A stretch of 64,000 nucleotides of DNA from Moringa oleifera. Its lineage: Eukaryota > Streptophyta > Magnoliopsida > Brassicales > Moringaceae. The DNA lies in assembly GCA_021397835.1 (NCBI GenBank), contig JAJFZO010000659.1:2294501-2358500 (forward strand), read 5' to 3'. Below the pieces are notes generated by a model, which was not told the DNA's origin, did no database searches, and was given only the letters and a program-made list of their open reading frames with translations. The position numbers and the translations under genes are program-made. Below are positions 1-14,990 of the stretch, piece after piece. Each line of letters begins with the position of its first letter. Positions within the stretch are counted from its first letter, which is position 1.

Positions 1-839
1 TTATTTTTTTTATTTGGATAGGATTTATGTTGGTAGATTACCATGTTTAGAGGTTGAGTCGATAGATTAATATCTAGTAGTGGGTCCGATTATATTTTCA
101 ACATTGATTATAGTAATAGTTGATTGCAAATTTGTTGTAATGTTTACTCTATGTTTGATGCTTTATTATTTTCTATTTTAATAATTTTAGAATCTATTAA
201 ATCAAATCCAATAAACATGAGATACATAGTAACAAAAACAATTTTCAATTTTAGAAACCAAAAAAAAAAAAATTGGTAAAGATTTGTTATGTTTGTCTTT
301 TGATTTGAGTTGAAAGCCCAAGAAAGCTTATTTCTTTAAAAAAAAAAAAAAGAAAGAGAAAAGAAAATGTGGTAGTCCTCTATATTCAGCAAAGGAACTT
401 ATAGTCAACAAATTAAGTTTGTTAAAGAAGTCATTATTTATAACATGCGTAATAACCACTACCATGATAGTTCCATCTAGTTTACATTTCTCCCTGTAGA
501 CAAGGTAAGTTATTAATAACAATTTCTAGTAAACTTCTTATTGTTTTAGTTTAACCAAAGGTAAGTTACTTTCTTTTGAGTGCTTATAAGTTTGAAATTA
601 TAATGCATCTAAATGCTTATCTGGACAAGTCATTGTGTTATAATTATGCACAAATGATAAAATACAAATGACTTTTCTGCTAGAGTTACTATACTTTTAG
701 GCACTTGGAGTTTTTACCTCTTTTATATGATTGCTTTCTCTTTACTAATACTTTTGAAAGATTAAATTTGTTATATTTATTATTATTACATATCCTAATA
801 TAGGTTATTTATTTTTTATGCTTTACCAGTGATTTCTTA
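1..839. other. AT-rich non-coding stretch
   Basis: No coding region is recognisable. It is A/T-homopolymer-rich and lies just upstream of a CACTA transposase remnant in the same orientation, so it may be the 5' part of that element. No left terminal inverted repeat was found inside the window. Confidence 0.4.
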
Positions 840-1925
840 ATGGATAATCAATCGTGTAAAAGATGGATGAACTATAGTAGATTAAGCAAAGAATATTTGA
901 ATAGTGTTAATAGTTTTCTGGATTTCACTTTCATGAATAAATCCATCGACGAAAAGATTCCATGTCCTTGTCAAAAATACATACTATGTTATCATAAAAG
1001 TCGGGAAGAAATACATGAACAGCTAAAAGTTAATGGTATTATTTTTAGGTATGATCTTTGGATTAGCCATGGGGGTTTTATGTCCAATGTTGAGCATCCT
1101 GCAAATTTTAGTATGGAAGAAGAACGTTATGAAGGTGATGACATGATAGGAATGTTGCATGGTGCTTTTAGAAAGTTTAACTAACCCATAGATATTAGTC
1201 TAAATAAGGAATAGTTGGGCAATTGTAGTACAAAAGAATCTACTATAAGAGAAGAAGGGTTTAACTAATTGATGAAAGATGCGAACCAACCATTATATCC
1301 AAGATGTGAGAACTTTACCACACTTTCTTTCATATTGCATCTTTGCAACATAAAGTGTCATTTTCGATGGTGTAAGAAATCATTTGGGGTTTTCGTGAAA
1401 CTTTTGAAAGATGCATTTCCTAAAGGTGAGATGCTACTTAATTCTTACAGTGAAGCAAAGATTATTCACGGATTAGGTCTAACGTATGAAAAAATTCATG
1501 CTTGTCCTAATGAATGTTTACTATTTTGGAAAGAACATAATGGTGGTGATGCCTATAGAGTTTATGGGGCTTCTCGACGGAAAACCGATGAAGAAAGAAA
1601 AAGGGAAAAAGTTCCTTCGAAAGCGTTAAGGTATTTTCCTTTAAAACCATGGCTGCAAAGATTATATACATGTTCTAAAACTTTAGCTTTGATGAGATGG
1701 CATTAGAAGGGTCGTACTAAAGACAACATTTTATGGCATCTAGTTGATTTTGAAGCACAAAAAAGGTTTGAATTTTTTGTCTCCAAATTTTAGTGGAGAG
1801 TCTCATAATGTAAGACTAAGCCTTGATTAGGATGGTTAAGATCCAAAGTAATTATAGTACTTGGCCAGTCACATTAGTATCATATAACTTACCATGTGAT
1901 TATGCAAAGTAACATTCTAATCTAG
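840..1925 (+). pseudogene. CACTA (En/Spm) TNP2-type transposase, broken
   Basis: This is the N-terminal part of a CACTA transposase. The first open piece (840-1184) carries the transposase-associated domain: a start such as MDNQSCKRWMNYSRLSKEYL, then CPCQKY and a YHKSR segment. The second piece (1269-1706) continues with the TNP2 region, including DANQPLYPRCENFTTLSFIL, KIHACPNECLLFWKE and LRYFPLKPWLQRLYTCSKT. Homology can be followed in broken frames to about 1925 (a segment reading YSTWPV...YNLPCDYAK). Stops at about 1183 and 1705 and loss of the catalytic core show that it is dead. The following Transposase_24 remnant is in the order expected for an En/Spm element. Confidence 0.85.
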
Positions 1926-2099
1926 AGCCTTCTTCGGAGCAACAAAGTCAACCATAATCTAATATTGAACATTCTATTGAAGAAAGCTGTAGCACAGAGT
2001 CAACCGATACATCTAGTAAAATTTATTTTGTATTAAATGATCAAAGTATTTTTTTTATTACATCACTTATTTCCTTGGAAAATTTAAATATGTTTTTAT

Positions 2100-3510
2100 T
2101 TTCATAGTTTTCATATAAAAGAGGAAAAAATGCTTACATTGCTAGCACATATTGAGAATCAACCTGGAGGAGAAAGGATAATAGTGAAATCTAATGATAA
2201 AGGGCAAGCTATCAGAGATAAAAAGACGTTTACTCGGTAGTTTCTTAGGTAATTTAGCAAAAAAATCCAAATATAACTCCTCTTTATATTGACGATTAGA
2301 GAGTGTTCCCAAAGAAAGACAAAGAGAACTTGTTAACATTGGTGAAGGTAAGCAAACACTAAATTCTAAATATTGTTTTTTATGTTTTGAGATTTATTAT
2401 ATAGGTAGGATATATAGCATATTTATTGATTTTTTTAATATACTTCAATGCAATTAAAATTTTTAATACCTTAAAGTGGTGAAAAATGGGTGTTGAGATC
2501 ACTTGAAAAAAAGTAGAAGGATTACAAATCTGAGATCAAAGCTGAGTTTTTTGAGAGATTCTAAAATAAGGAAGAACTCTTGAACAATAGATCAAAATGC
2601 ATACCAAGAGATCAATGGATTATCTTACTTTCATTTTGGTATTTAGAGAATGCTAAGGCGAGTGGTTGAATTAAAAAAAATAAAATTATTTTTTATTTGA
2701 TAAACTTATATTAATCATTATTGTAATATTAGAAACATAATGAGACAAACAAAAAAATTGATTGAATTTAAATATAGCACATATTAGGGGATCCAAAAGC
2801 ATTGCATGCCTGATGAAAGAAAACATAAGATATAGTTCTTTCATAAATTAATTTTAACAGTAAATCATTTAAAATACATTTTATAATAATTGCAGCATTA
2901 TGTATATTGATCTAATAGGAAAACAATGAAGTAGAGCCTTCATGAGCACATATATTCATAGATACTCACATGGAGCGCTAAAGATAGAAGATCACTCGAT
3001 AAGGAGTTTGCTTGTATAATGGTAAGTTTATGTAAACCCTAAAATGCATTGTCATACCAAGTTCTTAGTTTTAAATATAACTTTTTTTAAATATTAATAA
3101 AAGTATATGTTACCAATATATTTTTATATGTTATACTGAGTATAGGATTTAATGAAAAACAAGTTTAAGTCAATGTGAAAGTTCTAATGAGCAATCAGAA
3201 GAAGCATTAGATTGAGAAAATGATATATATTAGCAAGTAATAGGATTAGACAGAAATGATCTTGTGCATGGATTAGGACTTAGTCCAATCTAAAAAGTTT
3301 ATTGACTTCATCATTCTCTTATACGAGAAAAATTGTGAATAAGAATATAGTTGACGAAAAGGTTCATAAGTTAAAAAATGACTTGAAGATATGAAAGAAA
3401 ATCAAGAATGTTTGGAAGTTGAGCTTATGATGATAAAATCATTATTAACAGGAAGCACTTCTGATACAATACATATTGAATATAATAGACCATTTAACAA
3501 TCAGGTATGA
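2100..3510 (+). pseudogene. CACTA second protein (Transposase_24 / TNPA-like) remnant
   Basis: Broken-frame translation gives segments typical of the plant Transposase_24 family (PF03004): GERIIVKSNDKGQAIRDKKT near 2170-2230, EKWVLRSLEKKWKDYKSE-like text near 2480-2540, and IPRDQWIILLSFWYLENAKA near 2600-2660. A THME segment follows near 2960 and a coiled-coil end near 3410-3500. Introns and frameshifts separate the pieces. It lies downstream of and in the same direction as the TNP2 remnant, as in autonomous CACTA elements. It is not functional. Confidence 0.65.
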
Positions 3511-4266
3511 TTAACTTCGCATCTTCTATGCTTATGATTATTGGTGTTGATTCTAACTATAGATTTAGAATCAAATTATAGATTTATGTTTTTTGTTTTT
3601 TTCCCTTTTTCGTCTAACATTAGATTTAGTAAAAATTTTGCGAAGTGTAAAATATGTTAGATATCAATTTGGTCAAAAACTTGTCCATTTGGGCTATTGT
3701 TAGATAAATCCCTGAGAGTAAAATGAGATTAGGTCATGATTATGTATTATATTTTAAATCTAATAGGCTATTATTGATTCTTGGTACATTGTCTCAATAA
3801 ATGTAAAAATGCTTTATTTACTATTTTTAACATATGTTATTGTCTTCAAAACAGGCCTATGAAGAAGATATGTCTTTTTCTAGAAAGATATTATATCCAT
3901 ATTCATTGTTTTATCACCTTGTCCCAACTAGTTAATCCATGATGGTTTTGTTTTTTTTTCCATGAAGAATATTTGGAAAATGTGATGATATGAGAGTTAC
4001 TTATGCAAATGATAATGATGATAAGTGAAAAGAATTTCTTGCTTTATGGAAGACTACATTTGTAATTTCATGTGGAATGTATATTATTGATCACAAATTA
4101 ATTTGCAATCTGAAATCAAGTTGATATAAACCATAATCATTTCAAATGCATATTTTTTTATTTTTATCTTTTTTGAAAATGTGGAGAGAAACCCACCACG
4201 ATGGAAAACAATATGTTACAACTGAACTGTATTTTATATTACATTATTGAGATACATATTCTTATT

Positions 4267-4300
<34 letters not shown>

Positions 4301-4640
4301 AGAGATTCATGATGCATTTAGTGCTTATAGAGATAACGAAGAAAATAATAAAAATTTGGTGTCTGAACCTTCTCAAGGTAAGTATTATTTTATTCTTATG
4401 AAATAGTTATGTTTTGTACATGTTTTTAAATATATTTTTTGTTTTTAGGTCATACACTAGGAATTAACTATCGTTTGTTGGAAATTGATAAAATGATATT
4501 TTGTAGAGTTAGTGTATTAACTTTTAATTTTTTAAATTTGGGAGCGCTAGTGAACTTTTTACTTAGAATTATATTTTCGTTAAATAACTATTTAACATTT
4601 GGATATATTTTGTTATGTAAGAAAATAATATAAATGAGAT
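3511..4640. other. AT-rich stretch with a (TA)n tract
   Basis: No protein homology was seen. A TA dinucleotide tract lies at about 4269-4297. The stretch is probably the interior or 3' non-coding part of the first CACTA element. Confidence 0.4.
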
Positions 4641-4849
4641 TTTACTTACAAATGAGTATATTTATTTTAATTACATTGTGAGTTACAATTTTAAATTTTC
4701 ATACTTTAATTTGTAATTTTTCTTTAAAAAATAATGGTTATTCAAATGTTAATTATTTTAACAAACTTATAGTTTGATTTATATCAATAATTATATTAAC
4801 ATTTAATGGTAAAAGATTTAATTGTTAATTTTCACAAAAAGAAAAATGA

Positions 4850-5337
4850 AAGTTCAAATTGCTTTTATCAACAATTATTAATTACTTGATACTTACCTAT
4901 AAATACATAGACATTTAGCGATAATTGATAATTGTCGCAAACAAAATAAAAGTTAATTTTTTTTAGTAACAATTGTTATTTGCCTTAATAATTATCATTA
5001 AATAACTAAATATTTAGCAATAATTGATAATTGCAGTAAACAACATAATATCAATTTATTTTTAGTGGCAATTTATAATTGTCACAAATAAAACAAATGT
5101 CAATATACTTTTAGCGACATTAGTCAATTGTTGTTAAAATTTTTAGTAATAATATATATTTTTAAAGGTAATTATTTTATATCTTTACCAGCAATCGTGA
5201 TAATTACTATTATAAGATTTTCTCAACCCGACTATGCCAACTTTTGACCAGTTGCTAGTAAAGACCTTAGTGGCAATTGTAATTGTCGCTAAAAACTCAA
5301 ATCAATTACCATCAAAACCTTTTTTTATGTTGTACTG
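4850..5337. repeat. Subterminal repeats and possible right end of first CACTA element
   Basis: A short motif around GGCAATTATAATTGTCGC is repeated in degenerate form many times between about 4910 and 5300. This looks like the subterminal transposase-binding arrays of CACTA elements. The block ends at 5319-5337 with a T-rich tract followed by ATGTTGTACTG. Its reverse complement begins CAGTACAACAT, close to the CACTACAA ends of the superfamily. The end call is tentative because the matching left end was not found. Confidence 0.45.
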
Positions 5338-6243
5338 CACATGTAGAAAAACCAAAGAAAAAACTATGAGAGCTGAAACAAGATGTATTGAATTATTCAA
5401 ACTTGTCAATTATTGTGATTGGTCTTACTTCATAAGGATTTAATTCAGTAAATAATACAAGAAAAAAGAACTCTTCTTTATAATTTTTTGTTACAAATTG
5501 CATATTTGTAAATAAAAGTATTCATCCTCTACAAATTTTAAGAATTCGTATAGAATGTCCTCATATGAACTAGCTTGAAATCATTCTTCATGAATGTATT
5601 TGCATATAAGGTACAAAATTGTAGAGAATTGTTTTGATGTGTGGGGATATTCTTTTTCGGGTCTCATCCAACTATTAGCGCCATTTTTTGGCATCAAAAT
5701 TATTTCATTTTCTACGAATAAAAGTTTTTCTCTATGAATGTATATAAATTGACGAGAATTATGATTACATAGTCTACAAATAAGTATTCATATAGAAAAA
5801 AATATTTAATTTATTTCTTAAAATAATTGTAAGACTGAATTCACAAAATAATTATTTACAGGTTGATTTTCATTAACTATATTTATTTTTTTAAATAAAA
5901 TATATTTCCTATTTTTCTTAACTAATGATGATTTAATTTCCTATAAATTGTAATTCGTAGAATCTTTTTTATTTTGACATACCCACCTTAAAAGATATTC
6001 TTTCACCAACCTAATCACACTCTTTCTTTTCACACTAATCTCACAACCTTCGAACATCAACACCCATCTACCTCCTTTTGGTCTTCTCCATCTTCATCCA
6101 ATTAACCAACAAGCGAGCCTTAACTTTAACCATAATTTGCCACTAGAAAATCCTAATTTGACTCAATAAAACTCCAAATTGCCACCTTTAATATATCGTG
6201 AGTCTATTGTGCTTTCTCTGTTGATCCAAGTTTTCATTATTAG

Positions 6244-6628
6244 GGAAAGACCCATATCACAAGTCTTGTTTTAAAGAGCTGACCCATCCAAAATGTGAAG
6301 TATGTCACCAATTTGTAACAAAGGATAGCTAGTTGTTTTTCAACCATATTACTTGTTGAAAGATCTCTTTCTTTCTTACTCAGTATCATATTTTTGGAGT
6401 TTGTATTGACCATTTCGCATTTCTTATTTCCATCTCTTGAACTTTAATTGTTGAATGTTCAAATCATGTAACTTGTGATACTTAATTCTTTTGTTCATGA
6501 CTTTTCAGATTCCTACAAATACAGCTGGTCTAATTGAGTACCAATGCCATCCATTTTGGTCCCAAAAGTATTATCCAGCACACAAGATTGATAACACAAC
6601 TCGTTATTATAGTTGCGAACTTTTAGAG
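6244..6628 (+). pseudogene. DA1-related LIM-domain gene fragment (two exons)
   Basis: Exon a (6244-6314) encodes KDPYHKSCFKELTHPKCEVC plus HQF, the second half of the DA1 LIM domain. Exon b (6509-6628) encodes 40 codons starting IPTNTAGLIEYQCHPFWSQK and ending SCELLE. The intron runs GT (6315) to AG (6508) and joins HQF to IPTN in frame, as in DA1 (ubiquitin-activated peptidase regulating organ size). A GT donor follows exon b at 6629, but the next exon is not convincing; a possible trace lies near 6797-6823. The upstream LIM half, UIM motifs and peptidase domain are absent. Two conserved zinc-ligand region cysteines are now Tyr (YYPAH, RYYSC). It is a non-functional capture or relic. Confidence 0.75.
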
Positions 6629-9180
6629 GTATTGATTTGAACTAACACTGCAAATTTTTCTTTTTTCCAGTACTGTTATATCCTTAAACATCACAAAAGA
6701 ACAATACATTAGTATAGTTTTACTCAACATATGCATATTCTGGTGGCTTTTCATGTTTTTTCTTTCTTGCTCAGTAGAACAAATAAAGGCTTAATGTCAA
6801 GAGACGGAATACTTTCACTATAATCAATAATGTTCATGGCAAATTAGTCATGTGAATTCCTAAAGAGGAATTTTTTTTAAAAAAATAGAAATATAATTAT
6901 AATTGCCTTATTTAAATTAGAGATGTCAAAACATGTAGTATTAAGATTTTAGGTTATTAACCAAGTGATCATTATAATTTCATTGTCAAAAATTAGTTAA
7001 TGCTAGGGAAACAATGTTGACTTATTATTATTTTTGTATGACTCATAAAATGGTAAGGAGGGCATAGGAACATACATGAATATAACTTTTCGATAAAACT
7101 AGTTGTTAAACATATTGTAAAAATCAAACAGTGCATTTGTGAATTTCCCATGTGAACTTCTCATATTTCTTTCTTTCCCTCTCTCTTTTGCTCTTACGGT
7201 CTTTTTAATTCTAATGAAAAAGTTACTAATCGATCAAGTAAAATGGGGTCGGCCTAGCTAGGTACATGTGTGTGTCTCTGTGTGTGTGTATATATATATA
7301 TGCATGACTTGCATATGCATGCATGCATGCTTATAATTAGAGTTATGTAAATCAATTACCCATGTGATATTCTTGTTCTTAATTGGTAAATCCATCCTTT
7401 TGATACTTCAAAATTTTAATTCTAGGCATTTTTAGTAGGCATATGAGACCATAATGATATGCATAACTAAAGGAGAATTTGCATTTTAAAGTATACCTTT
7501 TGTTACATTGTCATTAACAACTTATTAATACTTGGTGTGCATTATTTTACATTAATGTTAAAGTAATTATGGACCATCTATTTATTATGGATGTACTCTT
7601 GATGAATGGGTTTCAATTTATGTATCTATCATATTGATATTTGATGGCATGTTAATGATTATTTTGTGCTATTTTTGTAAGTTTAAGCTAGAATGAATGG
7701 ACAAGAATGCTTATTTTTCAAATAAGGCAACCTTTTTTTTTTATAATGAATGTTTAAGAAATTCAGATAATTATTTTAAGTTTTAGTCAGATGAAGAAGC
7801 AAGAGGTTCTAAAGATTCTTAAGGGCAAAAGAGAAAGCGAAACCAACATTCTTAATTTCAATGTCTACTTGTGGATTAAACTTTAGTTAGTGGATGCTTT
7901 TGAAAAGGTTTTGTTTCTTTCCATTCTCATGGAGCAAAATGTTAACGTTGAGGTATGAATTTGAATGATCACAGTTGCCCTTTGGTCATTATAATGAGTG
8001 CAGTTAATAATAATTAAATGAGGAAAGATACAATTTAATAAATGAAGTTGAAAAATAGTAGAATCTGAAATGCTTATTTTAGAGTTACAATCAATCTATG
8101 GGTTAGAGGATCAAGAAACTACTTGAATTACTTGAACTATGTTATGTGATAATTCATAAATTTTAGCACGAATTAACATATGCAAATATCTAAAATTGGA
8201 AAATCTTTGTTATTAATAAGTTTATTGATTGGTTTTTAGAAGGATTTTTTTTTAGAGGGGCCAAAAGGTGTGGACTGCTTTTCTTTTAAAAAAAATAATT
8301 TAGGCATTTTGATTCCTTTTTCCTTTCTTTCTAGGAGAGTAAGTAATTTGCGAGGGTTTGCCCAAATTTAGCTTATGGAAATTAGTAAGTTTTGATGTGT
8401 TATGATGTTATTTCCTTAAGAAAGCATGAAGTTACTAAAATGATATTGATAAATTTGTTACTAGGTGATTATTGTTTTTTGAAAAAAAAAATTAATGTGT
8501 TATGATGCCGATACCCTAAGCAAGCATGAAGTTGATGAGATTTCTTTTAATAAATCCCAATGCAAATTAGCTATTCTCATCAACACAATGGAAATTGATA
8601 TTTTCCATTGCTAGGCCTTCAGTGCTTTGGGAGTGGTGAAATTATTTTTTCCTTCTTGGTCATTGCATTTTTCCAAAGTTTAGCTTGACAATTTTAAGTT
8701 TCAAATCACATCACTTTAAGCCTAATGAAAGGCACTATAATGTAATTATCGATAAGCGAAGAAAAAACAGGGACAAGAAATTCAAATCTTTTACTGCTGT
8801 GCACTAAGGGTAAATCTTTGGTTAGTTCATTGCCTTAGCACTACCATAAGTAGTCTATACTCTTCTTTTTGTTGCTATTCTAAACTAATGTCGCTAATTT
8901 TTTTTTAATGTGCAAATGAGCTGCAAAAAAAAAATAAAAAATAAAAAACCATAGGAAGAGAAAAATTATACCTAAGAATAGGACTAAATCTAATGCTAAT
9001 CATGACATGGCATGAGAAAGACCTGTCAATAAGGGACAAATCATGACACGAAGGAAATGCATTATAATGAAGAGGAAAATTCTTGAACAACTTATAAAGC
9101 ATGCTAGTATTATGTAAGTTAATAATTTTATTTCCATTTTAATTTGTCTTTTAACTATCTAACTACAATTTTTATTTTAG

Positions 9181-9570
9181 GATCACATGATGCCAATTAA
9201 AAAGAAATTAGATAATGCTAAGGATGCTTTTAATAAACTTAGTGACCATTCAAATAATGGATAAAGTTCTTGGAATGCAGTCAACATATTAGAATGGTTG
9301 ATTTAAAGCATAACCTCAATCACGAAAGTCATCAAGTAGTCCTTCTATTAAATTCCATTACAACTATCTTAGGTCAACCATCCTATTAAGAGCTTGTTAC
9401 TGAGCTTGAGATGACTCAAGTTAAGGTAGAGGCTACTAAGTCTAGATTACAGTATTGGCAACACTTGTTCGAGGCTAATAACATCTTCCCATCAATTAGT
9501 AACCTTCCTCATCGCCCTTTTGCAACTACATCCTCGCATTAGTCTAATGATTCCGCTGAACAAAAATAGT
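9181..9570 (+). pseudogene. Coiled-coil coding remnant, probably CACTA protein
   Basis: A frame near 9390-9540 reads LVTELEMTQVKVEATKSRLQ and then a short Pro/Ser-rich tail. This resembles the coiled-coil C-terminus of the second protein of CACTA elements. Stops interrupt it on both sides. The family assignment is an inference from style and location rather than a clear domain match. Confidence 0.35.
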
Positions 9571-10497
9571 TAATATTGTAGTATCGATGTTTAATTAACT
9601 TTGTAATAGTATTTTATGGGTTTATTGTGTTTAAATTTATGACATTGTGTTATAGAGTATTGACTGTTTAGGAGACTGTATTACAAAGTTCTGAATTTTA
9701 AGTTTACGACATTTTATTGAGTATTGAATTTTATGTTTATGATATTGTATTGATGAGTTTGGATTTGACATTTATAACATATTGTCATTCTCCACAATAA
9801 TTAATAATATTTAGATTTAATTTGTAGCTATGTTATATAACTTCTCTACAAATAACAAGTCTTGTATGAATAATTTACATTGTGAAATCATAGTAATTTA
9901 TATGAATAATTTATGTTATAAAATCATAGTAATTTATACTAATAATTTAGGTTATGAAATCATAGTAACTTATATGAATAATGTTATTTTCTTTGAATAA
10001 AATTAATATCAGATTTTGTAATTATTCTATTAATTAATGCCATCCGACGTAAATATTATTTATAAAGGAATCATTATTATTTTATACAAATTATGTCATT
10101 TGGTACAAGAATTATTTGTAGAAAAATTATAATTATTTTGTACGAATGATATCATTATTTACAAAGAATATTCGTAGTTATGTAACACCATTCTTTATAA
10201 AAGAGTTGCGTAGAAATTATTTTTTACAAATTAATCTATCAAAATATCATTTATTTTCTATGTATTTGTCTGTCCTTCTATACGAATAATTTTAAATATA
10301 TTAGTAGGCAAAAGTTACTTCTTCTATATGAATAAATGCATAGTAAAAGATTAATTCTCTCTCATCCTTTACAATGCTTCCTCTACAAATCACTATAGAT
10401 AATATATTAGTAGAAAATTATTGTCTATGGATATTGTATCTTTCTCTATAAATATTGTTAAAAGTCGTAGAAAAAAGTCATTTTTATTATAGTGAAA

Positions 10498-12892
10498 ATA
10501 ATGGATTAACGTCTTTCTTCACCTGGCCTTATTATTACCTGAATCCCTATTTGGTATACATAACAACAAAAGAAGAAATTGAAAATTAGGCACTTTCGCA
10601 CCTCAACATTAGAAAAGAAATGGAATTTGAACTTTATAATAGAGATTTATTCATAACTCCATTTGAAATTGTGGATAATCTTTAAATTGAGATCTTTATT
10701 CACAATTCCTTTAAAACTATGAACTAAGTGTTAACCCTAACCCTTTTAACTTTCTTTCCGTCTTCCTTTTTCTTCCTCATTCACATGATGCTACATGTAA
10801 CATCCTTCTTCATTATGAAAACATCTTACCAATTGGCTATAATCGACTTTCTAAGATTCTTTGGAGGGCTACTAGTGACCTTTCCAAGGTTTACAATTGA
10901 ACTTACTATCTTTAAATTTTTATGATTCAATTTAGACCTATAATCTTTCCATTTGGTTATCCATAGCTATAATTGATTCAATATCCTTTGTTTTTAGCTT
11001 TAAAAGAATGTTTCATTTTGATGTATCAGTTATAAACTTAGTCTTTTCTTTTTTTAGCGCACTGCTTAATATACGATATTAAGATATAATTCGTGAGTAG
11101 AATTCAATAAACCTTGTTGCCAAATAATAAATAATATTCTTGGAATCATATTTAAGTAGTCTAGTCTAGGCTTTCAATGTTAAAGAGAATCAATTTTTCG
11201 CCTGAGTTGAATACTAAAAAGGCATAAAAAAAATTTCTCATTAATTTTATGCATAATTTGACCTTGTTAAATGTAATTATTTATTGTCCATTTTTTCTAA
11301 ATACTTTCCTGGAAAAGAAGCCTTAATGCTTGTACTTACTTTAAGGTTTTCAATTCTTTTATTATAGAATTTTTGTTAAACAAATTTGAAATCTCATGAA
11401 ATATTCTCTTATGGAATTAATTTCAAATTAAGCAAATTTGATTTGATTTTTTTGAAATATTAGATAAATAAAGTTTCGGTGAAAAATTTGTTAAAGTTGG
11501 ATTATATAATGTTTTAAAGACACAGTGTCATGTTAAAGGCTGAATCAATATGCAAAACTATGCTATTAACTAAATAAACAAAATTTTGTGAAGGCTATTT
11601 TGTAGATTTCACCAGAGAAAGTCATCTTTAAGTTAAGCAATAGCTCAATCAGTTGGTCATGGGTTCTTCCTTTCCTCCCTTGTAAATGTTGTCACAAAAT
11701 TTACTTAAATAGGTCTTCCACATCCATCTTGTGTGCTTTGCCTATTTTCTCTTTTTTTTTTCATATAATCTAAAGTCTAGAAACTTGTCAAGTCAACTTC
11801 TGTCTACACGGAGATGGCCAGTAAATTTTAAGAACATTAGTTGATCATCAATATGTCATGCAAAAAAGATGAGAAAGTGAGATATGAGATTCAATTAAGG
11901 TGATTAAAAGTGATAAATCTTCAATATCTTATTTCACATGTTGAATTTATTGTCTTATGAGTCTCAGCACAAGTGCTATATCAAGTTTCTTTTTTTGTGG
12001 TATAAGGTTTAGCTTAATGACCAATTTTCAACACTAAAATATCTATTACTTATTTTTCATAATCACTATCTACTTTCACTTTCTTTGGCTTGTATATGCT
12101 CCGTTTTAACCTCTGTCATTATTTTTTCTTATAGTAGTATTACTTTTCCTTTCTGTCCTTATCAATTTCTTGTTTCCCTTTTCTCATTTTTAAATTTACA
12201 ATATGCTATACTTCCATCTAATGGTTCAGTTAATGATTGTATGGTTTAGAAAATTTATTCTTGTATTGGTAAGGGACTTATCTTTACATTGTTATGCTAA
12301 GTGTAAACCTCGATGGGCTTTATTTCAATTGCCAGAGAGTTTGAGCTAAGGATTTGTATTAAATAACGGATATGAGATTAGGTATCCCTCTAGATTTTTA
12401 TTGGCTAAACCCTTTTCTATGAAAAATTTTAGCTTTTTCTTTCCATTTCCCCAAATTTCCCCATGTTAGAGAGATGAGGGGCTTGTTTCATGGTAACTTT
12501 GCAGGTTTACTAACCTTTAAATAATTCCCACTTAACTAGTTAGTTATCACAAAGCTTAATTTTTTAAATATGCATTATAGCAGTTGCTAATTAGTACCTT
12601 TTATAATGACTTTCCTTTGTAGATAAGCAATTTGAATTCTGAATATTAATTTAGTCACTAATTATAGAGCACTACTCTATCTAGGTTCACCTCGTGAGCT
12701 TTGTGAGATTTATCTTGAAGTTTATGTGCATAATTCATAGTTCTCCATATTATTCAACTAACTTGTTTGTTTATTTATTTGTTTGTTTTTTCCTTTCTCT
12801 TAGAAAAGTTGACAACTTCAAAGATTTAGCAATTAATGATTAACAATTAGTTAATTAGTTGTATTATCCATTTCACTCATCTTTTAGGTCAT
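10498..12892. other. AT-rich intergenic stretch, nothing recognised
   Basis: Only short unconnected ORFs occur here. No protein family, RNA gene or clear repeat boundary was found. Confidence 0.4.
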
Positions 12893-13141
12893 TGTAGATC
12901 ATCTCTCTCTGAATGCCTAGAATGATGACGTCATACTAAAAAAAATCTAGTGTTTGAATATAAGCATGTATTTTTAAGTTTTAGTTAGGAGAATAATTAC
13001 CAATTTAAGACGCTTCGTCGAGCTAAGCATTCATCAATGTTGATCTTGCATCATCTTTTTAGTTTTATTATGTTGTCTTCTAGAATCTCTCTTTTTGTTG
13101 AGATCATCTATAGCATTTTTCATAAGAATATTGCAACGGAT
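12893..13141 (+). repeat. Diverged copy of a dispersed repeat (see 21991-22414)
   Basis: The segment aligns along its length with the 212-bp unit at 21991-22202. Shared stretches include GAGAATAATTACCAATTT, CTAAGCATTCATCAAT and AAGAATATTGCAA. Similarity seems to continue to about 13200 (GCATGCTATCAAGAG against TCATGCTATCAAGAG after the second copy). It sits about 9 kb from the other copies in the same orientation. Confidence 0.6.
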
Positions 13142-13423
13142 CAATATTTAAAATGTCTAATCTACTCGAATTTTGATATTTGTGTTGCATGCTATCAAGA
13201 GAAAAAAATTGGCCTCCTTATAAGGTTAAGTACTGCTGGAGTAGCTTGAGAAGTAGAGGAAATGCTAAAAGCAATAGTGATGAGGTCCATTTTAAGGTTA
13301 GGATACTCATTTAACACTTTATTTTTAGTATCCTGCTTAACCTCCTATAACATTTATGTACATTCCTTTAAAATCTTCTCATTTAATTCCTTACTATCCT
13401 TAAAGGCTGGTATAATTTTTATC

Positions 13424-14990
13424 TTAGTAGCAGCCAACTGCTCCAAGTGTTCTTTCTTCAAGTTTTCCTACTAAAATCCAAAGTTTACCTTTATCTTTTC
13501 CATTTCTACCTTTAGCATGGAAATGTCTTAGTCTGCCTTGTGCTCTTACAGCAAGAGTGTGGAAACTTTTGAGCCTTCTCAAGAGCTTTCTTAACCACTT
13601 GGAACTCAAATTCAAGCTGGCTTCGAATCATGTACTTTTTTTACTATTAAAGCAATCTCTTGAACAACCTTTAAATATAAAAGATTTATGAGTTGACAAT
13701 GGAAAAGAAAAAATGAAGAATGTTCAAGCAAAATATACCTGAGCTAATGAAGTAGACATCATTTCCAATTGTACCCTCTTCCTGTCTGGCAAGACTAGAG
13801 AGGTTAAGGTTAACAACACCATTTCTTGGATAAGTTATGTGATCTTCTAAGCTTGAGAAGTAATGGTGACTACTACTACAAGCTCCTACTGAGGAGAAGT
13901 ATACAAAAGTCACAATCTTAGGGGGCTTACTTTACTGAACACCTGCCTTCTACAGGTAAAGTGCTACCACCTTTCCTTTTTTTTTGAAGAAAAGCATGGA
14001 AGTGGCTTCTTAGCCACTTCTACCGCTTTTCTTAATTTCTCTTCTAACTCTTAGGCATTTTCAAGGTGTGATCTACAAGAAAAGAAATAGAAAGGAATTA
14101 GTGACAATTTGCTAAAGATAGGAGTAGAGGCATTTCTAAGATGAGGTCTTTTGATAGGGAAAGGAAGACTAGGTAGAGTAGAGGATGAACAAGCTCAGGC
14201 AAATTCTAAAAGAGAGTCTACCACTTGAGGAAATAGTGTGAGATTCATGTTGAAAAGCTCTTTGGAGGTTAGAGGGATGTGCTCTTAGGAAACAAGGTAA
14301 GAATGTACTGTAGCTACTTAGGTATCACTAAAAAATACTAACATAAGTAGAGTTTTCTTGCTGCTCATTAAAGTTTGCTTAAAAGTAGCAAGTAGCTTAT
14401 ATAGAGTGGCATCACTGTCACAATCTTGGTTAGGATAAGTCCACTAATTAATCCTTGGAGGAATTATATTCCAAATCACTGAAAAGCATGATTGTCTCCA
14501 ATGTTTCATTACCTTAAGAAGGTCAACGGTAAATAGTGAGGGTCTCTTGGAAGAGAAATACCAATATCTCTAAGGTGTTTTAGGTTAGTTTTTAATTGCT
14601 TTCGCTAAAAAACCCTAAGAAATACTAAGGGAGATAATTCTGTGGTTCCTAAATTTAATCACCTAATAAGGAAAACAAATAACATTCTCCATGAATTAAG
14701 AACCAATTGAAAAGGAGATACCCCATAATTTTCATAGATTACTCTAAACGATGTATTTAGAAGAAGTCTCAACCTTTTTTGAGACATTCCTCAATCAAAT
14801 AGAGGGTGCCTAGCTTTTTAAACTAGGGCTTTTCATCAAGGGTAGGTATCCCCATGCCTACTGAGTCAGGGATCCCATAAGTTCTATTACTCCTAGCCAA
14901 ATCCATATTAGTAATCACTTAAGAACCTATGAATTCCAAGCTTGCTAGAGTTTAAAAGAAGAATAGAGTAAATAAAAGCGAAATTTACCT
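13424..14990 (-). pseudogene. Antisense extra ORF of Tat-type Ty3/gypsy element (upstream copy)
   Basis: On the minus strand, near 14620-14760, a frame reads VIYENYGVSPFQLVLNSWRM and continues LFVFLIR. This resembles the N-terminal part of the putative gypsy-type transposon ORFs (PF04195-like). Downstream on the same strand (13913-13686) is TFVYFSSVGACSSS and following sequence. Stops and shifts are frequent. Tat-lineage elements often carry such an ORF in antisense between pol and the 3' LTR. Here it lies upstream of a presumed LTR and a plus-strand gag, so it would belong to a neighbouring element that shares that LTR. Confidence 0.45.

Follow-up and report, generated by a model that had tools for sequence, protein, structure and literature searches.

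Positions 5453-10494 of the window (the whole 64,000-nucleotide stretch of Moringa oleifera DNA that was analysed, on contig C566) hold a degraded, non-autonomous CACTA element whose interior is a mosaic of seven fragments. The limits put forward in the preliminary description hold, with a tip at both proposed positions and AAA on either side. The assembly searched comprises 279.5 Mb in 669 contigs. Fragments were placed by local BLAST and pairwise alignment, and the limits listed for them are the tighter BLAST limits:

5450..5452, no strand: putative left target-site duplication AAA, read from the sequence, weak alone in A-rich DNA
5453..6208, plus strand: left terminal and subterminal CACTA backbone, 66-77% matches at at least 8 places
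6204..6706, plus strand: fragment A, from a DA1-type gene, two exons with the intron between them and some of the outer intron on either side; 84%, C565:2063752-2064252
6711..6810, minus strand: fragment B; C25:4021298-4021398, 84%, E 2.8e-21, with an NB-ARC open frame about 430 bp away
6869..7076, minus strand: fragment C; C563:6276989-6277210, 78%, E 2.5e-36
7292..7468, plus strand: fragment D; C1:11407521-11407692, 81%, E 1.2e-39
7468..7934, minus strand: fragment E; C517:3063419-3063971, 81% (458 columns aligned), E 6.3e-65 for the best piece
7931..8605, plus strand: fragment F; C549:909803-910474, 76% (BLAST), E 4.1e-131
8657..8854, plus strand: fragment G; C565:1609337-1609535, 83%, E 3.9e-50
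8856..10494, plus strand: right CACTA backbone, including the subterminal repeats and the right tip, about 67-76% BLAST matches
10495..10497, no strand: putative right target-site duplication AAA, read from the sequence, weak alone in A+T-rich DNA

The host-gene DNA that marks a Pack-CACTA element lies between these ends as seven fragments, the DA1 exons among them, each with one home locus among the matches listed, on six contigs. Together they cover 2323 of the 2652 bp between the backbones, leaving 329 bp without an assigned home. Matches of fragments to their homes range from E 2.8e-21 to 1.1e-144 and came alongside short simple-repeat matches; 19 of 25 and 1 of 13 matches in two interior searches were set aside as short and taken for simple repeats. 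For 7077-7291, the genome search returned only the window itself and short matches at 7259-7300, which we likewise take for a simple repeat. The preliminary description had proposed the capture of a DA1 fragment; that piece is confirmed, but the cargo was understated by six further fragments of about 100-675 bp.

Two of the home genes are confirmed by their domains, those of DA1 and of enoyl-CoA reductase. The latter carries PF02544 (Steroid_dh) and matches PDB 22of_A (art-1 reductase) at E 1.7e-57; the home of G lies directly upstream of a long exon of this very-long-chain enoyl-CoA reductase gene, some 454 kb from the home of A, and G is probably one of its introns. The home of C lies about 450 bp past the final open frame of a gene that resembles Orn/Lys/Arg decarboxylases. 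That of E overlaps an open frame without a Pfam match, and its alignment contains 104 gap columns, with internal gaps relative to the parent. The home of F appears to fall between two exons of one gene, as judged from the open frames on either side, and this gene is presumably nickel-transporter-like. Frames from the homes of D, E and F that were submitted to Pfam gave no match.

Fragment A spans 503 bp (6204-6706). As had been claimed, it holds two DA1 exons (6244-6314 and 6509-6628) with a correct intron and intact AG/GT splice letters. Intron DNA flanks and separates these exons, and the template was therefore DNA, as the preliminary description had also argued; RNA-mediated capture of this fragment is ruled out by the retained introns. 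Does the similarity to DA1 run on beyond the fragment? In this one genome the match stops at 6204 and 6706, and the DA1-type gene resides on another contig, C565. This parent gene is assigned to the DA1 family by its predicted LIM and DA1-like domains (PF00412, E 2.6e-8; PF12315, E 3.8e-40 in two stretches), together with a UIM_2 match of 19.4 bits that stays below the cut-off of 21. A search for a solved structure akin to the frame of its second LIM-region exon returned no match. Compared with the parent, the 23 codons of exon 6244-6314 show four silent changes and none that alters an amino acid, and the 40 codons of exon 6509-6628 five silent and eight amino-acid changes, of which three are Cys-to-Tyr. 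The latter exon looks unconstrained and the former gives no such sign, the changes being too few to measure selection.

The main case for a CACTA identity is the recurrence of ends and backbone in the same genome, rather than the tips or the AAA flanks. At least eight other backbone places match the first 848 bp of the element, and at least ten match its last 935 bp, so that the proposed ends do recur, a point on which the preliminary description had staked its proposal. Within the reach of one genome, this result and the limited extent of the DA1 match both favour that proposal. These counts are lower bounds, and the places are not all independent, because two copies on C12 look duplicated and two matches on C518 share limits and scores. 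The left backbone is matched on C24, C517, C12 (two), C627 (two), C49 and, over 59-289 only, C3; one further match of the 848-bp search, on C565, is the DA1 gene itself. BLAST matches of the right backbone lie on C12 (two), C82, C518 (two), C3 and C627. Identity of the backbone places to the focal copy is 66-80%, and the family is therefore old in this genome. A CACTA-like tip was present in five of seven left ends inspected and, in some form, in each of the five right ends inspected out of ten places, several of the tips being offset by some bases from the predicted position.

Read inward, the right tip is CACTATAATAAAAATGACTTTTTTC. In the left tip, TAATACAAGAAAAAAG, two of the five CACTA letters deviate. 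The CACTA/G start of terminal inverted repeats is thus found at the right (CACTATAA) only, the left being decayed (TAATACAAG); tips in relatives read CACTATAAG and CATTACAAG. Taken alone, the tip evidence is weak and the tip-to-tip similarity modest, since the 30-base similarity is equalled by 1.3% of 5000 random pairs drawn from window positions 3001-14000 (p = 0.013). Scored against a tip pattern read by eye from the other copies, the right end reaches 25/30 and is the sole position to do so among 127,940, and the left end reaches 19/30, as do 17 positions with the left end included. Counting both strands, the window contains the eight bases CACTATAA five times, once as the right tip, and also at 6816, in a gap between fragments, and at 8733, inside G. 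The inverted CACTA-like ends of the preliminary description are borne out by the right tip and by recurrence elsewhere; the left tip is decayed and the similarity of the tips by itself modest.

For the internal subterminal repeats, we counted CTACAAAT, TACGAAT, TATGAAT, CTACGAA and their reverse complements, motifs picked after the sequence had been seen. The left backbone (5453-6203, 751 bp) contains 9 against a shuffle mean of 0.75 and the right backbone (8856-10494, 1639 bp) 12, all within 9780-10494, against 1.92; the cargo (2652 bp) is not enriched, with 3 against 2.37.

AAA flanks both ends and may be a 3-bp target-site duplication, but the surroundings are A-rich. Flank searches on both sides in this one assembly found no empty site: the left flank brought up a different, abundant family ending at about 5337, and the right flank six scattered matches, all starting at least 195 bases from the element. 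The longest stop-to-stop frames inside the element do not exceed 77 codons in the open-frame list. By eye, none of the stop-to-stop frames is transposase-like, and frame 6503-6628, the only one from the element submitted to Pfam, gave no match. No second copy with the same cargo was found among the matches listed for the interior searches of this assembly, and the combination appears to be single-copy there.

Sister elements place the cargo within an otherwise shared backbone. Those on C24 and C517 are alike over about 1.95 kb, and where the focal copy has changed over to DA1 they still have about 1.2 kb of backbone in common. Within 7 kb more of each, no similarity to the right backbone was found. 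A sister of about 9 kb on C12 matches at its ends and lacks this cargo. Some of its short open frames may be TNP2-like, as judged by eye; the one submitted to Pfam gave no match. In the sister at C627:2891853, the tested part of the interior yielded some matches to a high-copy repeat and otherwise nothing of length. Its shared backbone ends about 16 bp before the focal switch to DA1 (focal position about 6192), which hints at a preferred break point.

At the left joint, C24 matches the focal copy up to 6208 by BLAST (6213 in a looser alignment) and C517 up to 6180. At the right joint, one C12 copy and C82 start matching at 8856 by BLAST, the other C12 copy at 8925; in looser alignments the first two begin at 8811 and 8820. 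By BLAST limits the overlap is 5 bases between the left backbone and A, 1 between D and E, and 4 between E and F, and spacers of 4 bases and 1 base separate A from B and G from the right backbone. The joints are thus abrupt by BLAST limits. With looser pairwise alignment, the limits of B, C, D, F and G shift outward by anything from tens of bases to about 150, at low identity, and the outer joints blur as well. Overlaps of 0-5 bases may be due to chance.

All seven fragments have diverged to a similar extent. Over 2289 aligned columns (A 500, B 100, C 208, D 168, E 458, F 657, G 198), each fragment being trimmed to its BLAST-alignable part, the mismatch fractions show no detectable difference (chi-square 7.15, 6 df, p = 0.31), although equal divergence is no proof of one event. 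The differences are asymmetric: C-to-T/G-to-A differences number 196 from parent to fragment versus 59 in reverse (p = 2e-18). By block the counts are 50/8 (A), 6/3 (B), 16/9 (C), 14/1 (D), 50/6 (E), 49/23 (F) and 11/9 (G); the asymmetry therefore comes from A, D, E and F and is weak in G, C and B. We infer the direction of change from this asymmetry, as the parent is not the ancestor. Parental cytosines read T in the fragment at 68/162 CHG, 19/53 CG and 109/611 CHH sites; the reverse view gives 7/43, 5/21 and 47/597 (CHG versus CHH, p = 0.08), and hence a weaker context bias that way too. A C-to-T bias highest in CHG and CG is the pattern that DNA methylation would leave, and suggests a silenced fossil. 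At substitution rates of 4e-9 to 1.3e-8 per site and year, the K2P distances of fragments to parents (0.146-0.236) correspond to an age of some 6-30 million years, a figure that methylation has probably inflated.

How did pieces of seven loci come to lie side by side between two CACTA ends? We propose that a larger CACTA element lost its middle when the double-strand gap of an excision was incompletely repaired. The repair strand would have copied short stretches of several host loci in turn, by abortive gap repair with template switching, and introns would have come along because the templates were DNA. The element, between its AAA duplicates, would then have been methylated and have decayed by C-to-T change. 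The mechanism of Rubin and Levy is reportedly abortive gap repair. We give a probability of roughly 0.85 to the reading as a Pack-CACTA remnant that gained its seven-locus cargo through gap repair and template switching, was methylated, decayed by C-to-T change and most likely has no function today. Repair with template switching is favoured because the joints abut and divergence is similar. A tentative step further, and somewhat less than an even bet, is that a single repair joined all seven fragments, the template changing serially between seven loci spread over six contigs. If true, the element would be the fossil of a single abortive gap repair, datable by methylation-driven decay.

Stepwise capture is the strongest competitor, though we consider it unlikely. 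Here the cargo would have accumulated by repeated fusion of neighbouring CACTA insertions through local hopping, loss of inner ends and re-mobilisation. Such fusion is the published model for Pack-CACTA elements of Arabidopsis and Pack-TYPE elements of rice and maize, as argued in PMC8903248 and reviewed in PMC13317346. In the present case it would require several rounds, and inner ends are unrecognisable in 6200-8860, where the best 30-base matches score 18 for the right tip and 19 for the left, against 20-21 elsewhere in the window. That the fragments abut to within a few bases where the joints are clearer, and that their divergence is alike, also speaks against it. Far less probable is a present role in which the DA1 fragment, transcribed or read through, gives small or chimeric RNAs acting on the parent DA1 gene. 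Exon 6244-6314 shares 3 of 51 21-mers perfectly with the parent, and all 51 at no more than two mismatches; the splice letters of the DA1 exons are retained, the decay pattern implies methylation in the past, and fragments of soybean Tgm-Express1 are described as spliced into transcripts (PMC1947982). Exon 6509-6628, however, shares none of 100 21-mers perfectly, and 8 of its 40 codons bear amino-acid changes, including the three Cys-to-Tyr; the reading frames of the element reach at most 77 codons, and the element is old and present in one copy. Any role for the DA1 piece, small-RNA control included, would be speculation. The degraded left tip and the modest tip-to-tip similarity (p = 0.013) might suggest that the ends arose by chance and that the mosaic is a scrambled region unrelated to them. 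This is contradicted by the many other places with homologous backbones, whose boundaries fall where the cargo begins and ends.

We class the element as a Pack-CACTA resembling Tgm-Express1, and thus as a kind of element already known. Tgm-Express1, a soybean CACTA element in F3H (wp allele), is described as 5.7 kb long with five gene fragments; the two have in common the CACTA superfamily, several unrelated host-gene fragments, exonic and intronic, and a similar size (PMC1947982). Unlike its five fragments, which are spliced into transcripts in that account, the seven here are strongly diverged from their parents and known from sequence alone. Pack-CACTA and Pack-TYPE elements of Arabidopsis, rice and maize are likewise non-autonomous, with terminal parts common to relatives and a unique captured interior; the examples presented in PMC8903248 belong to multi-copy groups and hold one or two gene pieces, whereas seven pieces in the one copy found make up the present case. 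The CACTA-like Jozin elements of Chenopodium have also captured gene fragments, key flower-development genes included, but are described as carrying them outside a persisting transposase coding sequence, and the same account credits Rubin and Levy with a capture mechanism (PMC8978399). No report of DA1 as CACTA cargo was found in the literature searched, as judged by titles and abstract openings. The element adds a rich case to a known class and does not establish a new one. One way in which plants shuffle exons is through CACTA elements with captured gene scraps, and a copy whose seven donors are mapped, whose joints are sharp and whose decay resembles that left by methylation bears on whether such cargo stems from one chaotic repair or many small steps.

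Several observations concern the surroundings and relatives of the element. Just to its left, 804-1184 encodes a Transposase-associated domain (PF13963, E 1.6e-16), and a region ending at about 5337 matches at least about 39 other genome places at 73-83%, scores being given for 40 of 179 candidates. We infer that domain and repeat region belong to one element, a second CACTA-type element at 804-5337. The right ends at C518:6318346 and 6342272, 24 kb apart, have identical scores and tip sequence and are probably a recent local duplication. The copies of about 9 kb at C12:7445329 and 7777951, 332 kb apart, have similar flanks, which looks like a segmental duplication and not two insertions. At C627:3570826-3571877, a right and a left CACTA end stand back to back with about 120 bp between them.
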